NCBI RefSeq assembly: GCF_030540835.1
Contig: NZ_JAUOEK010000140.1
Span: 1-64,000 of the forward strand
Source: Flavivirga aquimarina
Lineage (GTDB): Bacteria; Bacteroidota; Bacteroidia; Flavobacteriales; Flavobacteriaceae
Direction of reading: 5' to 3'
Length of the DNA stretch: 64,000 bases
The notes below the pieces were generated by a model. The model worked only from the letters and a program-made list of their open reading frames with translations. It was not told where the DNA came from and made no database searches. The position numbers and the translations under genes were made by a program. Each line of letters opens with the position of its first letter. Position 1 is the first letter of the stretch. This document shows, piece after piece, positions 30,520 to 61,981 of this stretch.

Positions 30520-30925
30520 TGCTTCTGTATTTTGTGCAGGGATAAAAGGAGCTAGACACCAACTAAGTAAAATAACTTAAGTTGAACATTACGTTTGTCT
30601 TGATTTGCCTTGAATCACAAAAGCACTATTATCAACTTTAAAGGAAAGTGTCTGGCTTGCAATGAATTACTATTACTTACAGTTGCGCGGCAGCTTGTAA
30701 TTTTAACACAACCCTTTAGTAATTTAGTGTTTAACTAAACCTTTAAAAGAATACTCAAATATATGGCTTTTTTAGAATTAAAAGACACTCAACATATATT
30801 TAACCAGACTTTGTTGGCAAACCATTTTTTGAGCTAATGAATTTAATTCTTTGCAATATTTATCATATAAAGTTTGTGAGTAAATAACAAACAATTACAT
30901 TTACATAGGTAAAATTTCACAGTTT
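30520..30925. other. Intergenic region between PAS and DUF3857 genes
   Basis: A 406-base gap holding divergent promoters for the PAS protein (minus) and the DUF3857 protein (plus). No TAnnTTTG element with a good -33 partner was found, and no ORF stands out. AGACAC (near 30555) and GTGTCT (near 30649) form a weak inverted pair. Confidence 0.35.
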
Positions 30926-57448: not shown

Positions 57449-58507
57449 ATGGAATACGATTATAAAAAACATAAGAGCGATGCTATAAGTAGTTATTCAA
57501 AATTGAGACCTACTTATGAATTATTTGCATATACATTAAAAGAGATTTTGACTAAAACTCTCAAAGAAAAGAGAATCAATTATCATTCTATAGAAGCCAG
57601 AGCCAAAGAAATTGAAAGTTTTGGTAATAAAGCCTCAAAACCAAGCGAAACTAATCCAAACAAACCTAAATATTCTGTTCCGATAAAAGAGATAACCGAT
57701 TTATCCGGAGTTAGAATTATTGCATTTTTTCCAAAAACCATCAAGGAAATTGGAAAAGTTATAGAGAGTCAATTTGAAGTTATAGAAGTTAGTGACAAAA
57801 GTGAAATATTAGAAAAAGAAGAAAAATTGGGCTACCAAAGTGTACATTATTTGGTGAAACTTAAAGAGAATCGTCTGAATTTACCTGAATATCAAACTTT
57901 TGACAATATGGTTTCAGAAATTCAGGTACGAACAATTTTACAACATGCTTGGGCTGAAATTGAACACGATATTAAATATAAGTCTACAATAACTATTCCT
58001 TCCAATATAAAAAGAAGGTTTATAGCTCTTGCAGGTGTTTTAGAAATCGCAGATAGAGAATTCCAGTCAATACAGGATGAAGATAAAAAACTAAAAACTT
58101 CTGATAGAAAATCAGTAAAAGAAGGAAAACTTGATGAAGTACAAATTACACCTGACTCATTTAAAGCATATTTAGATAAGACATTAGGCTCTGATGGTAG
58201 AATCAGTAATTATTCGTATAATTCTGAAACAGAATATCTGATTAAAATGGGATTCAAAAATCTATCTGAAATTGATAACTGTATAAAACCATATATTGAT
58301 AAAGTAGTTGTCGATAATGCTGTCTGGGGAGCTAGACAGGGACAAATTTGGAGATTTAATGACTATTTATTAGCTGGAATGGGAGAAAAACTTCTTAAAA
58401 AACATCCAAGAGTATTAGGAAATCACTGGTTAAAAGAGCGTTACACCGATGGTTTAAAAAATATGGAAAAATCAGGTGTTAAAATTGGAACATTTGAACT
58501 AAAATAA
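57449..58507 (+). CDS. RelA/SpoT-type nucleotide synthetase without hydrolase domain
   Basis: A 352-residue protein. Residues about 70-185 are a RelA/SpoT synthetase domain: VPIKEITDLSGVRIIAFFP, GYQSVHYLV and VSEIQVRTILQHAWAEIEHD. No HD hydrolase, TGS or ACT domain is present. Residues about 220-352 are an unassigned domain. It is not the housekeeping (p)ppGpp enzyme. Stand-alone synthetases can make alarmones, pyrophosphorylate tRNA (toxic synthetases) or serve defence. A 13-base palindrome precedes it, and a CD-NTase operon follows in the same orientation. The start ATG has an AGAAGGA run directly in front. Confidence 0.85.
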   Translation: MEYDYKKHKSDAISSYSKLRPTYELFAYTLKEILTKTLKEKRINYHSIEARAKEIESFGNKASKPSETNPNKPKYSVPIKEITDLSGVRIIAFFPKTIKEIGKVIESQFEVIEVSDKSEILEKEEKLGYQSVHYLVKLKENRLNLPEYQTFDNMVSEIQVRTILQHAWAEIEHDIKYKSTITIPSNIKRRFIALAGVLEIADREFQSIQDEDKKLKTSDRKSVKEGKLDEVQITPDSFKAYLDKTLGSDGRISNYSYNSETEYLIKMGFKNLSEIDNCIKPYIDKVVVDNAVWGARQGQIWRFNDYLLAGMGEKLLKKHPRVLGNHWLKERYTDGLKNMEKSGVKIGTFELK

Positions 58508-58657
58508 ATTATGCTGCACAACCATGCTATAAGTAATTGCTTGTTCTCTCCTACTTCTGAAAACCCTCGTGGATTTTCAGTTTGGTATATACTTGCTAAG
58601 TTAAGTACTAAACCATGCAACTGCTTATTGAAAAGCAGAATCTAACAAATAAAAAAT
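58508..58657 (+). other. Structured 150-base spacer between synthetase and CD-NTase genes
   Basis: This spacer holds the hairpin CTGAAAA/TTTTCAG (58557-58580), the hairpin CTGCTT/AAGCAG (58621-58638) and two copies of AACCATGC (near 58520 and 58611), each followed by a GCTT. The organised repeats suggest a cassette boundary or a conserved leader, not random sequence. No ORF is present. Confidence 0.5.
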
Positions 58658-59647
58658 ATGACAAAAACAGTAAATGGAGCATTTACAGAATTTAATAAAG
58701 AATCAGTAAACCTAGACCCAGATAGAACAAAAAAGGCAATTAAGAGTAGAGACTGGTTAATTAATCAATTAAAAGGTTTGCCAAATAAAGTAGATAACTT
58801 TCCTGCACTCTATGAAGGTATGTCTATTAAATTTGGTTCATTTGCTCGCAAAACCAAAATACGCCCATTAGATGATATTGACTTAATTCTAACATTTAAA
58901 GCAACTGGTTCAACATACCGGACTCATACATACGGACAGAACTACTCTTTAATAGCTCCTAAGTCAGCAACAGATTTAAGAAAGTTATGTAACGATGACA
59001 GTACTATTAATTCGATAAAAGTTGTCAATAAAATTGTGTCATCTCTTGACCAAATAGAACATTATAAATCAGCTGAAACCCACCGTAGACAAGAAGCTGC
59101 AACCCTTCAATTAAATTCCTATGAATGGAATTTTGATATTGTCCCTGCTTTTTACACAGATACAGGTTACTATTTAATTCCTGATGGTAATGGAGAGTGG
59201 AAAGCAACCGACCCCAGAATTGACCAAAATAGAGCTACCTCAATTAATCAAAAACATGATGGTAAAATTCTACAACTAATAAGAACTATCAAATATTGGA
59301 ATGATTATGCAAAAATGCCGATAGTACCTTCTTATCTGTTAGAAAATATAGTTTTAAACTATTTTGACTCAAAGGATGAAATTGCGGGCTATATTGACTA
59401 TAACATCAAGTATTTTTGGAATCATTTAAAAACAGCCATCTACAAAAGTGTTAATGACCCGAAAGGGTTTCAATCTGATTTAAACTATTTGTCTTATGCA
59501 GATAGGGTCAAAATCTCAGAAAAAGCAGAAAACACATATGATAAAGCATGTGAAGCTTATGAAGCTGAAATGACTGAAGAAAATCAGGAAAAAGCAATTA
59601 ATAAATGGAGAACAATATTTGGAGACAGTTTTCCTAAATATGAATAA
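58658..59647 (+). CDS. CD-NTase-type nucleotidyltransferase (CBASS-like)
   Basis: A 329-residue Pol-beta-fold nucleotidyltransferase of the SMODS type. The catalytic GS is at 60-61 (KFGSFARKT), the metal aspartates are Asp73 and Asp75 in PLDDIDLILTF, and the third Asp is Asp160 in WNFDIVPAFY. All are intact, so cyclic oligonucleotide synthesis is expected. The next gene starts 2 bases later and encodes a small four-helix membrane protein, the arrangement of short CBASS operons. The nucleotide product cannot be predicted. Confidence 0.9.
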   Translation: MTKTVNGAFTEFNKESVNLDPDRTKKAIKSRDWLINQLKGLPNKVDNFPALYEGMSIKFGSFARKTKIRPLDDIDLILTFKATGSTYRTHTYGQNYSLIAPKSATDLRKLCNDDSTINSIKVVNKIVSSLDQIEHYKSAETHRRQEAATLQLNSYEWNFDIVPAFYTDTGYYLIPDGNGEWKATDPRIDQNRATSINQKHDGKILQLIRTIKYWNDYAKMPIVPSYLLENIVLNYFDSKDEIAGYIDYNIKYFWNHLKTAIYKSVNDPKGFQSDLNYLSYADRVKISEKAENTYDKACEAYEAEMTEENQEKAINKWRTIFGDSFPKYE

Positions 59648-59649
59648 CT

Positions 59650-60423
59650 ATGACAGGGTATACACCTTACAAAGGCTCTTTTGAGCAAGCAAAATCTATG
59701 AGCAAATATGCTAGTACAATCCTATTGATTTCTACTGGAATTCTAATAACTGCTTTTGCCCTCAAAACTTTTAATAGTTCACTGACTAATTTTAGCGATG
59801 TATTAACAAACATCAACTGTTTCTTTATTATTTCTTATGCAGTTCTAAGTTTTTTAAGTGAAACGTTTTTTTATCAAGCAAGTATTCAAAGACGAGAAGA
59901 TTTTATAGACAATTCATTTAATACAAGTATAGCAGAAAGTAGGTCAGTTGATTATTACACTAATGGAAATATAGCAACAGGTATTTACAAGATGGCAGTA
60001 AATGGTTTTGAAAATTCATTATTTACGTATAATATCGGGAAACGAATGACATTAAAAATTTGGTTAAAAAATTTAATCTTTGCCTTATTAATTCTTGTTT
60101 CCGCAATATTTGGATTTAATAATGCGTTCACTTTACTTATTCAGTTGACTTTACCTATTTTACTATTACAACAATCAATTAAACATACTTTATTTGTATA
60201 TAGGATTAATAGAGTGTTTGAGAACTATAGGAGACTGTTTAATGATTTAAAATCTCATGAAGATTCTAAACATAAAAGACCAGAAATAATATTAAATGTG
60301 TTAGACTATGAAACAACATTGACATATGGAGCAATTTTGCTTGATTCAAAATTGTATGAAAAGCTAAATCTTGAATTATCAGCAATTTGGTTAGAATTAA
60401 AAAGAGAGTATAACATTGAATAA
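59650..60423 (+). CDS. Four-helix membrane effector, S-4TM-like
   Basis: A 257-residue protein with two pairs of membrane helices (about 22-41 and 54-72; 140-156 and 160-178) separated by a cytoplasmic region of about 65 residues. The C-terminal part is soluble and helical. It follows the CD-NTase gene by 2 bases. The size, four-helix layout and gene pairing match the SMODS-associated S-4TM effectors, which are thought to damage the inner membrane when bound by a cyclic nucleotide. The pore-forming action is inference from this family. Confidence 0.82.
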   Translation: MTGYTPYKGSFEQAKSMSKYASTILLISTGILITAFALKTFNSSLTNFSDVLTNINCFFIISYAVLSFLSETFFYQASIQRREDFIDNSFNTSIAESRSVDYYTNGNIATGIYKMAVNGFENSLFTYNIGKRMTLKIWLKNLIFALLILVSAIFGFNNAFTLLIQLTLPILLLQQSIKHTLFVYRINRVFENYRRLFNDLKSHEDSKHKRPEIILNVLDYETTLTYGAILLDSKLYEKLNLELSAIWLELKREYNIE

Positions 60424-60499: not shown

Positions 60500-60727
60500 C
60501 TATAATTCAAAATCAAATAATTCTTTGGGATGGATTTCTAAGCCTTCAGCTAAAGACAAGATTGTTTTCATAGAAGCTCCATGCTCTCCTTTTAGCACAC
60601 GATATACTTGCTTAGGTTCTATTTTACCTATTGAAGCAACTGTCATGACGTCTTTATTATACTTTTCAAGTAATAATTTCAGATGCTTTCCAAACGCCTT
60701 GTAATATGCTTTGTTCGTTTTCTTCAC
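60500..60727 (-). CDS. XRE-family helix-turn-helix regulator
   Basis: A 75-residue protein that is almost entirely one HTH_3 domain: LLLEKYNKDVMTVAS, KIEPKQVYRVLKGEHGASM and LSLAEGLEIHPKELFDFEL. The frame opens at GTG (60727), which lies in the inverted repeat CTTCAC-TTT-GTGAAG. The 18-base palindrome at 60760-60777 is just upstream and suits a dimeric regulator, so self-regulation and control of the divergent RNA are likely. It faces away from the RNA and sigma genes. Confidence 0.88.
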   Translation of the reverse strand: MKKTNKAYYKAFGKHLKLLLEKYNKDVMTVASIGKIEPKQVYRVLKGEHGASMKTILSLAEGLEIHPKELFDFEL

Positions 60728-60736
60728 TTTGTGAAG
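60722..60736 (-). promoter_or_regulatory. Inverted repeat covering the GTG start of the XRE gene
   Basis: CTTCAC-TTT-GTGAAG (plus strand). In the minus-strand mRNA the GTG start codon would sit in a 6-bp hairpin. This could limit translation, or be fortuitous. Confidence 0.4.
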
Positions 60737-60759
60737 TTGTGGTTTTTTTCAAAATAATA

Positions 60760-60799
60760 ATTGTCAAATTTGACAATATGATAATTATTTTTATATTTG
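60760..60799 (+). promoter_or_regulatory. Promoter overlapped by an 18-base perfect palindromic operator
   Basis: The palindrome ATTGTCAAA|TTTGACAAT (60760-60777) contains TTTG at 60769-60772. Nineteen bases later is TATATTTG (60792-60799). Together these form a close match to the Bacteroidota promoter, reading right toward the structured RNA. A bound regulator would cover the -33 box. A second TATATTTG at 60838-60845 has no good partner. CAGTTC/GAACTG (60809-60830) is a further inverted repeat. Confidence 0.75.
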
Positions 60800-60890
60800 T
60801 TTTTTAATCAGTTCTATTAGTATTGAACTGTAATTTTTATATTTGCGATTCTTCGTATAGAAAATATTTGAAGTCATCGCTTTGAATCTC

Positions 60891-61023
60891 GTATCAGAAA
60901 ACTAGTAATTTTTAAGCAACGAGAAGATAAGTAAGATGCTCACGTCTTTAGGCGTGGGCTCGCTTATTGTTGCTCGGTATACTAGTACCTCTGATGCGAT
61001 AAGTTGAGTTCCACGCCTTTTTT
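60891..61023 (+). ncRNA. Structured RNA or leader with two mutually exclusive folds
   Basis: A long irregular hairpin can form from five helices: GTATCAG/CTGATGC (60891-60897/60991-60997), ACTAGTA/TACTAGT (60901-60907/60980-60986), AGCAAC/GTTGCT (60915-60920/60969-60974), ATAAG/CTTAT (60927-60931/60963-60967) and GCTCACG/CGTGGGC (60938-60944/60953-60959). A competing stem pairs GGCGTGG (60951-60957) with CCACGCC (61011-61017) just before TTTTTT, like a terminator. It is either a free RNA ended there or a leader controlling the 110-aa and sigma genes. Flavo-1 and 6S RNA are named alternatives I could not test. Confidence 0.65.
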
Positions 61024-61143
61024 ATTTCCATATATAAAAGGGTTTATAAGGTATATACCTCATTTTTTAGGCAGAATTAACCTTCTGGTATTTTCAACTT
61101 ACATTTTTTAAGTATTACTAATTATAAAATAATGTAATTATTT

Positions 61144-61476
61144 ATGGAAAAAACAGTAGCCCTTGCATCCCCAGATTGTTTAAACATACCTAATCATTAT
61201 GCTATTATTGCTACATTGTTTGTGTTATTAGATAGGTCTGGGTTATCTAAAACTGTTATAAAACATTGCAAATTGGGGTTAAAAATTGTTGCAACTTTTT
61301 ACGATTACCCAGAAGGTAACTCACAATCCAAACCTTTATCCGCCAAAGAGTTTAATGCCTTTTTTTCTTTTTTCCCGGCTTCATTTGTCAACTCTAGAGA
61401 TTCTATTCCTATAGGTACGATTCTCGATGCGCTACTTTTATGTATAAAATCCAATAAGATTACCCATGTTAAATAA
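61144..61476 (+). CDS. Unknown 110-residue protein coupled to the sigma factor gene
   Basis: A soluble, mildly basic protein with no recognised domain. An early hydrophobic stretch (HYAIIATLFVLLDRSGLS, about 18-35) could be a buried helix. FYDYPEGNSQSKPLSAKEFN is a polar middle. Its stop overlaps the sigma factor start by 11 bases, so they are translated together. Such a partner could regulate the sigma factor, but it is not a recognised anti-sigma (no FecR domain, no membrane helix). Confidence 0.65.
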   Translation: MEKTVALASPDCLNIPNHYAIIATLFVLLDRSGLSKTVIKHCKLGLKIVATFYDYPEGNSQSKPLSAKEFNAFFSFFPASFVNSRDSIPIGTILDALLLCIKSNKITHVK

Positions 61477-61981
61477 TAGCCAGAAAGACGTTCCTTTTCA
61501 AGAGCTTTTTAAAAGCTTATATCCACAACTTTGCGTACTTGCTTATAGGTATGTTAACGATATGGAACTTGCCAAAGATCTGGTACAGGACGTGTTTCTT
61601 AATCTATGGAAGGATAACATCGCTTTTGTTAACCATAACCATGCTACGGGCTATTGTTACAATGCTATTAAAAATAAATGCCTGGATTTTATAGCATGCA
61701 AAGAAGATACAGGTACAGAACCTTTTTTGCTTGTAAATAAGGAAATTTACAAATTGGAATCCTTTTTTATGTCTCAAGCTGTGGTTATTGAAACAACTGC
61801 TATTATAAATAATGTTGTAGATGCCTTACCAGATAAAACATCTCAAGAAGTAATTAAATTGGGTATAAAAGATTATACCAATAATGAGATTGCCAATGAA
61901 TTATCTATTTCTGTTAATACCGTTAAGAAGCTTAAAAAAAAGGCATACCTCAAATTAAAAAAACTTTTTGGCTATAAATAA
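61466..61981 (+). CDS. ECF-type RNA polymerase sigma factor
   Basis: A 171-residue sigma-70 family protein. Region 2 is at about 10-75 (YPQLCVLAYRYVNDMELAKD with LVQDVFLNLWKD), and region 4 is at about 115-168 (ALPDKTSQEVIKLGIKDYTNNEIA; SVNTVKKLKKKAYLKLKKLF). It has no regions 1 or 3, as in ECF factors. Bacteroidota ECF genes are usually next to a FecR-type anti-sigma and a TonB receptor; here neither follows. Instead the unknown 110-aa gene precedes it. Confidence 0.9.
   Translation: MLNNSQKDVPFQELFKSLYPQLCVLAYRYVNDMELAKDLVQDVFLNLWKDNIAFVNHNHATGYCYNAIKNKCLDFIACKEDTGTEPFLLVNKEIYKLESFFMSQAVVIETTAIINNVVDALPDKTSQEVIKLGIKDYTNNEIANELSISVNTVKKLKKKAYLKLKKLFGYK

Follow-up and report, generated by a model that had tools for sequence, protein, structure and literature searches.

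A stretch of 64,000 nucleotides from Flavivirga aquimarina (RefSeq assembly GCF_030540835.1, contig NZ_JAUOEK010000140.1, positions 1 to 64,000 of the forward strand; hereafter, the window) contains, at 60839-61030 (+), a conserved structured RNA/DNA element that was delimited by genome and phylum searches, and that lies between a small divergent gene of the XRE type and the genes for a 110-amino acid (aa) protein and an extracytoplasmic function (ECF) sigma factor. On balance, we lean towards reading this region as one copy of a Bacteroidota control cassette, formed by an XRE-gated leader, or attenuator, that dCas12f-sigmaE could bypass in the organisms where it is present. In such a cassette, the XRE protein would repress the divergent promoters and the transcribed leader would fold either as a rod, allowing read-through, or as a terminator, stopping transcription; the downstream gene, here that for the 110-aa protein together with the ECF factor, would thus be under two gates. 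In hosts of sigmaE-dCas12f, a guide with the sequence of the arm common to both folds would bring the complex to the DNA of the element, and transcription would start at or beyond the terminator. This entry would bypass both gates, because initiation at the start-site distance reported for dCas12f-sigmaE would fall at about the position of the terminator. In the species of the window the XRE protein and the leader would act alone, the third input lacking as far as searched. That the unit is XRE-gated, and that the switch controls the operon, is what we infer from the sequence. A broader and more tentative proposal is that a hypervariable XRE gene and a bistable leader form a widespread, modular gate and move together, as a cassette, from one nutrient-receptor or regulatory operon to another, and that an exapted dCas12f-sigmaE, with one fixed guide RNA directed against the shared arm and a start past the terminator, may open all the gates of a genome simultaneously.

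The RNA element and its two folds

A DNA search of the genome of the window (G000; G006, G007, G008 and G011 stand for F. amylovorans, F. jejuensis, F. rizhaonensis and F. algicola, as assigned by inference) revealed seven more copies of the element, 80-84% identical, each flanked by a small divergent open reading frame (ORF) and, opposite it and provided that the contig is long enough, by a gene of the 110-aa family. A covariance model built on the eight own-genome copies (R1) gave matches in 12 of 12 genomes of the genus searched, 1-11 each at E ≤ 0.001, and in 32 of 148 genomes sampled within the order; a second model, built on 31 diverse elements (R2), gave matches in 53 of 395 genomes and 27 of 171 genera of the phylum (the own genome is counted in both the order and the phylum). 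A DNA pattern scan of named genomes returned 114 matching stretches, and the 80 loci listed among them come from Flavivirga, Flavobacterium, Chryseobacterium, Maribacter, Muricauda, Mesonia, Aquimarina, Pedobacter, Mucilaginibacter, Dyadobacter, Niabella, Bacteroides, Parabacteroides and others. An earlier note on this DNA had described the region as one unit; instead, the element is present in multiple copies and is spread over several classes of the phylum. Primary conservation is very high across orders in blocks such as AAAACTGGTAATTTT. Viral contigs gave 0 exact matches to the pattern of the element, and Rfam 15 gave no match to it at gathering score, with E-value scans returning matches far below the gathering scores; a known RNA family, for which the earlier note had allowed, was thus not found at the element. 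The only Rfam match at gathering score within the window is a cobalamin riboswitch at 30626-30759 (−; 34.6 bits).

The element is predicted to form a rod-like hairpin at 60889-60999 (+), with the covarying stems V1 (60891-60898/60990-60997), CUAGUA/UACUAG, V2 and GAUAAG/CUUAUU and an apical hairpin (60938-60944/60953-60959). An arm at 60951-60961 (+) is needed both by the apical hairpin and by a terminator stem, the 3′ arm of which, GAGTTCCACGCC (61006-61017), is followed by TTTTTT (61018-61023), the two together covering 61006-61023 (+). The minimum free energy (MFE) of positions 60850-61025 is −52.7 kcal/mol (z −4.0), and none of 200 dinucleotide shuffles was equally stable. The rod (−54.6 kcal/mol) and the forced terminator fold (−52.6 kcal/mol) differ by 2.0 kcal/mol in favour of the rod.

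Covariation was assessed in a structure-blind alignment of 87 distinct elements, compared with 200 shuffles, and in a set of 31 diverse elements from across the phylum, compared with 500 shuffles. In the first set, V1 was 95% paired and had 203 double-change cells vs. 56.8 in the shuffles, followed by V2 (114 vs. 38.5), an alternative helix, UCUCG/CGAGA (19 vs. 2.8), and the terminator stem, GGCGUGG/CCACGCC (10 vs. 2.4), all of them counts that the relatedness of the sequences inflates. The observed pairing was matched by 0 of 200 shuffles for seven of the 11 helices, by 5 of 200 for GAUAAG/CUUAUU, by 1 of 200 for the apical hairpin, and by 42 and 33 of 200 for two near-invariant helices. In the second set, where relatedness inflates the counts likewise, the rod had 96 double-change cells vs. 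26.4 in the shuffles and the alternative fold 36 vs. 11.5, and 0 of 500 shuffles reached either value; a measure of further pair types was reached by 2 of 500 shuffles for the rod and by 83 of 500 for the alternative. In 26 of the 31 elements, the 3′ arm is followed, no more than 10 bases away, by a run of four T residues (T4), and the window has its T-run. Thus, two mutually exclusive predicted folds are both conserved, the terminator fold with weaker covariation. The earlier note had proposed such folds, sharing 60951-60961, and had named covariation in homologues as their check; folding bears them out, as do compensatory changes well above those of the shuffles. Direct reading confirmed what the note had said of a perfect 18-base palindrome at 60760-60777 that overlaps a promoter, and the 110-aa ORF that overlaps an ECF sigma gene was found where it had placed it.

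The XRE gene, its putative operator and cassette exchange

The divergent gene (60500-60727, −) encodes a cassette-specific protein of 75 aa, which is assigned to the XRE-type helix-turn-helix (HTH) proteins from its ORF and from weak matches in Pfam (HTH_26, E 0.0012, below the cut-off) and PADLOC (a control-protein model, 4e-4). Between this gene and the RNA lies a gap of 113 bases with the 18-base palindrome ATTGTCAAATTTGACAAT (60760-60777; strandless), a putative XRE operator, the arm length of which was reached by 2% of 60 dinucleotide shuffles of the gap, and by 7% of shuffles for an identical palindrome in locus L103. A palindrome with a shuffle p ≤ 0.05 was found in the gap of 19 of 52 copies (2.6 expected), a count that is non-independent, as one XRE class has one common palindrome; from class to class the palindrome sequences vary. 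A Bacteroidota-type promoter, TTG-N19-TATATTTG (60770-60799, +; TTG at 60770-60772 and TATATTTG at 60792-60799), recognized purely by its match to the consensus, overlaps the palindrome. A second TATATTTG, at 60838-60845 (+), is a conserved −7-like box, TAnnTTTG, at the start of the element; the box was found in 72 of 72 elements, most of it belonging to the search model itself.

As judged by place and size, a small divergent ORF accompanies the element at 58 of 63 matches, in loci from 12 Flavivirga genomes, and these ORFs form 28 clusters at 60% identity. An ORF resembling the Flavivirga XREs is found upstream of the element in 63 of the 80 listed loci. Among the 17 loci that lack one, five are at most 300 bases from the fetched edge and eight are Bacteroidales copies, for which no XRE-type ORF was found upstream. 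Near-identical copies (97-99%) of the XRE gene of the window are present in L091 (F. jejuensis), L103 (F. amylovorans) and L083, three loci that have downstream DNA in common with one another and with L096, a locus of the window's own genome at the same place, and not with the window. The XRE of L096 is another one, with 30-33% identity to those of the three loci, and their 110-aa proteins are 44-48% identical to that of the window. Identity between the window and the three loci is 89-94% from about the XRE stop codon to base 203-208 of the element and 64-76% thereafter; for L091, the values are 94% up to base 208 and 69% after it.

Among the 52 Flavivirga copies that are full-length and accompanied by an XRE ORF, 37 pairs have common downstream DNA; seven of these are syntenic upstream too and nine have a common XRE. 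Conversely, the 17 non-syntenic pairs with the same XRE have RNAs with a mean identity of 87.3% (78-99), vs. 80.7% in 1263 other pairs, and their downstream 110-aa proteins are less than 50% identical in eight of the 12 measurable pairs. Identity of the downstream protein is somewhat higher in the same-XRE group (53.7 vs. 45.8%; permutation 0.019), the pairs not being independent. Moreover, older cassettes with RNAs broken off in the apical hairpin persist upstream in L076 and L103. To judge from these sequences, the XRE gene and the RNA tend to behave as an exchangeable block between Flavivirga loci, with exceptions. That the two always move together is too strong a statement: the XREs of L100, L113 and L117 are 99-100% identical and their RNAs just 82-83%, and L113 and L117 are syntenic, with 96.5% identity across the surrounding 2.7 kb, yet their RNAs are 82-83% identical. 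The simplest guess as to how exchange occurs is homologous recombination within the conserved RNA. An integron-like insertion strictly in the apical loop, as suggested by L076, L103 and L107, was set aside, as full-length RNAs keep their halves matched and L076 has a second stacked XRE gene that lacks any remnant of the RNA.

Several loci have further genes at or beside the cassette. In L107, a gene for a 331-aa transposase (IS110-like by eye) splits the RNA in the apical loop, and a transposase is found at the same offset in L133 and L134; the apical loop may therefore be a preferred target. Genes for tyrosine recombinase-like proteins (by eye) lie just upstream of the XRE gene in L093, L131 (422 and 418 aa) and L094 (a fragment of 111 aa), and may be connected with the turnover of islands. 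Beyond the XRE gene, a gene that looks Cas9-like by eye (1128-1293 aa) is found in L078, L080, L108, L119, L125 and L126, which represent six Flavivirga genomes and XREs of several classes, L119 having an additional small gene between. Many other copies of the element adjoin variable accessory DNA. In the window, genes like those of a cyclic oligonucleotide-based antiphage signalling system (CBASS) lie immediately upstream at 57449-60423, convergent with the XRE gene; they encode a RelA/SpoT-domain protein, a SMODS cyclase (58658-59647) and a four-transmembrane (4TM) effector (59650-60423), the latter two as placed by PADLOC. Contig C50 of the window's genome (L099) is 99.7% identical to G007 (L092, F. 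jejuensis) over 4.5 kb, a near-identity that may reflect either recent transfer or slight contamination; the element region of the window and its F. jejuensis match, at 94% identity, are below that value.

Downstream genes and the dCas12f-sigmaE target

The ORF at 61144-61476 (+) encodes the 110-aa protein, of an unknown family (here DUF110) for which no credible match was found in Pfam, NCBIfam, PADLOC or PDB. As a single-sequence query, the protein gave matches in 12 of 12 genomes of the genus and in 0 of 48 others. An AlphaFold2 model has five helices and a mean predicted local distance difference test score (pLDDT) of 72, and comparison with PDB folds gave nothing at E ≤ 0.001 (best E 2.3). 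A family match is found downstream in 51 of the 52 full-length Flavivirga copies, some of them fragmentary, and none in L130. Kinship with a 187-aa protein that occupies this position in Chryseobacterium was considered and rejected, as the profile comparison was negative (probability 1.4). The overlapping ORF at 61466-61981 (+) codes for the ECF sigma factor (171 aa; Sigma70_r2/r4), with a Pfam Sigma70_r2 match at E 5.1e-10, a TIGR02985 match below its cut-off and, unlike the ECF factor of L164 (see below), no PDB relative at 1e-5. The family can do without the ECF gene, which is full-length in some of the 52 copies, reduced to the sigma2 half (77-92 aa) in eleven (L080, L081, L082, L090, L095, L101, L105, L113, L117, L128 and L129) and absent in the rest. 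The short protein may be a functional form and not a product of decay.

Across the 80 listed loci, the first downstream gene codes for SusC in 38, for an ECF factor followed by dCas12f in 10, for a 110-aa protein in 12 (three with ECF), for ECF alone in three, for ECF and then SusC in one, and for the 187-aa protein in one; no seed matched in 15, several of which end at the fetched edge. The distance from the start of the element to the next gene ranges from about 150 to more than 1000 bases. In six Bacteroidales loci (L210, L214, L218, L261, L263 and L275), the next gene is dihydrofolate reductase/RibD-like by eye; since a similar gene occurs in different Bacteroidales genera, it may sit on a mobile element. 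A sigma operon, in which the earlier note had seen the purpose of the unit, cannot be its general purpose, as the ECF gene is truncated or absent in other copies and elsewhere SusC/SusD or sigmaE-dCas12f follows.

In L163 and L164, the gene in second place behind the element has a match in PDB to 'Nuclease-deactivated Cas12f' (E 2.8e-160 and 1.2e-194, respectively). The gene ahead of it in L164, first after the element, matches 'RpoE' of PDB 9n9q (E 7.2e-114), an entry that contains relatives of both proteins. Downstream of dCas12f, a conserved Cas12f-type scaffold ends in ...ACAAC or ...ACAACG and continues as GCGTGGG(C/T)T..., a guide that is a same-sense copy of the shared arm of the element, in which a G adjoins the arm 5′. 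The equivalent of this site in the window, from the guide comparison, is G + GCGTGGGCTCGCTTATT at 60951-60968 (+). It was also considered that the RNA of the element is the dCas12f guide RNA itself, an idea that was dismissed because the separate scaffold downstream of dCas12f carries the guide. The guide is present in 10 of 10 dCas12f loci of one set, the element being present in nine of them and missing from L197, and in eight of 10 loci of a second set, which may overlap the first; the Mesonia guide lies about 670 bases farther, as judged by eye. Over six elements of G011 and G115, guide and element match at 15-17 of 17 nucleotides, and in G115 one element lies ahead of the sigmaE-dCas12f operon and one ahead of a SusC-SusD operon (by eye).

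dCas12f was found in eight of the 35 genomes checked, of which 34 have an element match; G011, of the same genus, is positive. In the genome of the window there was no dCas12f, no PF07282 match and no exact match to the guide junction CAACN{0,1}GCGTGGGYT, which a diverged scaffold could escape. The target site and its adjoining G are present in the window (the G motif itself being one reported for dCas12f-sigmaE), and the first T4 run lies at a median of 66 bases past the first target base (72 elements, 66 with a recognizable target). The dCas12f-sigmaE study reportedly describes a 5′-G motif, a fixed start-site distance and action upstream of SusCD genes.

Alternative readings and significance

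Several of our observations weigh against the reading of the region as an XRE-gated leader open to bypass. A TTG lies 17-23 bases ahead of the conserved −7 box in just 16 of 72 elements. Among the 59 testable of the 87 elements, the rod is the stabler fold in most, by a median of 3.8 kcal/mol, and the terminator fold is the MFE in just eight. In the 31 diverse elements, the terminator stem is almost invariant, with a double change in just one of 10 pairs, so that its support in this set comes mainly from invariance, and T4 is missing after the 3′ arm in five. The dCas12f loci L201 and L241 showed no such guide, and in the Chryseobacterium lineage guide and element match at just 10-14 of 17 positions; dCas12f being present in so few of the genomes, most elements are not kept by the guide. 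Finally, contig C122 of the window's own genome has two more 110-aa homologues without an element (R1) match. The short Chryseobacterium matches are not absurd, because guides as short as 6 nt sufficed for TldR, according to the excerpted text of that study (PMC13418256).

One rival reading is that of an independent structured non-coding RNA that has a promoter and a terminator to itself and partners a ribonucleoprotein (RNP) or acts as a sponge, the downstream gene being promoted separately. The −7 box and, in most copies, the T-run flank a compact RNA of about 180 nt, the primary conservation of its blocks across orders is very high, and the distance to the next gene, as given above, varies widely. 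We nevertheless consider this unlikely, if still a serious competitor: a free RNA has no need of the alternative fold that conflicts with the rod and is conserved as well, and most of the listed loci have a same-strand gene within about 1 kb. The exchange of cassettes, the stacked older cassettes with RNAs ending in the apical hairpin (L076, L103) and the transposase in the same loop (L107; same offset in L133 and L134) would agree with a palindromic DNA site, that is, a recombination or insertion target of the attC or REP kind with a structure that serves single-stranded DNA. This appears improbable, since the −7 box and, in most copies, the T-run have the same polarity, full-length copies retain matching 5′ and 3′ halves across V1 and V2, viral contigs gave no exact pattern match, and no constant recombinase was noticed beside the element by eye, without a profile search. 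The constant side is that of the 110-aa gene.

In several lineages the guide equals the conserved arm with its adjoining G, as expected if the element were conserved solely for recognition by the dCas12f-sigmaE guide and the folding of the RNA were incidental. However, the own genome and G001-G010 lack dCas12f, yet G000-G008 retain the site, and V1 and V2, which lie outside it, covary strongly; retention of the site without dCas12f largely refutes this explanation, which we regard as very improbable. Chance adjacency of three ordinary parts (XRE gene, attenuator-like hairpin and ECF operon) has next to no likelihood. Each part alone is common in Bacteroidota, as general knowledge has it, but recurrence refutes the idea, the order of XRE gene and element being found at 58 of 63 and at 63 of 80 loci, with eight copies in one genome.

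Two-fold leaders, XRE repressors and dCas12f-sigmaE are known kinds of regulators, and the proposed XRE-gated leader resembles each of them in part. As for dCas12f-sigmaE (PDB 9n9c, 9n9m, 9n9o and 9n9q), loci of G115, G011, Chryseobacterium, Maribacter and Mesonia have the element immediately ahead of genes for relatives of the two proteins, and a nearby guide in those loci copies the arm beside the G; in contrast, the window's genome gave no dCas12f, PF07282 or guide-junction match, and the element, with folds and an XRE gene of its own, occurs more often than dCas12f. The TldR proteins, TnpB-like nuclease-dead repressors, also act by RNA-guided control of transcription, but they are repressors of another protein lineage, and the excerpted text mentions no XRE or structured leader (PMC13418256). 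Riboswitch and attenuator leaders, from general knowledge, likewise have two exclusive stems with a common arm, one of them ended by a T-run, ahead of a gene; the element differs in having no known ligand, a rod in place of a compact aptamer, and an interchangeable divergent repressor as its partner. The C proteins of restriction-modification systems and phage-type repressors, again from general knowledge, are also small XRE proteins with their own palindrome, but restriction genes were not noticed by eye as a constant neighbour here, and a structured RNA lies between repressor and target.

Neither the RNA family, nor its swapping with XRE genes, nor its identity with the guide target was found in Rfam 15 and the open-access literature searched; the target part of the dCas12f-sigmaE story may already have been published. 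With the covariance model and the clear target motif that result from the analysis, new members can be sought, and three questions become directly testable: what the regulon of dCas12f-sigmaE is in its hosts, how similar operons are kept separate within a genome, and why XRE genes swap so freely. If the reading as an XRE-gated, bypassable leader is true, a large RNA family missing from Rfam would govern, together with an interchangeable repressor, the SusC/SusD receptor operons that are major nutrient gateways of the Bacteroidota, and an RNA-guided sigma factor would gain a defined set of natural target sites.

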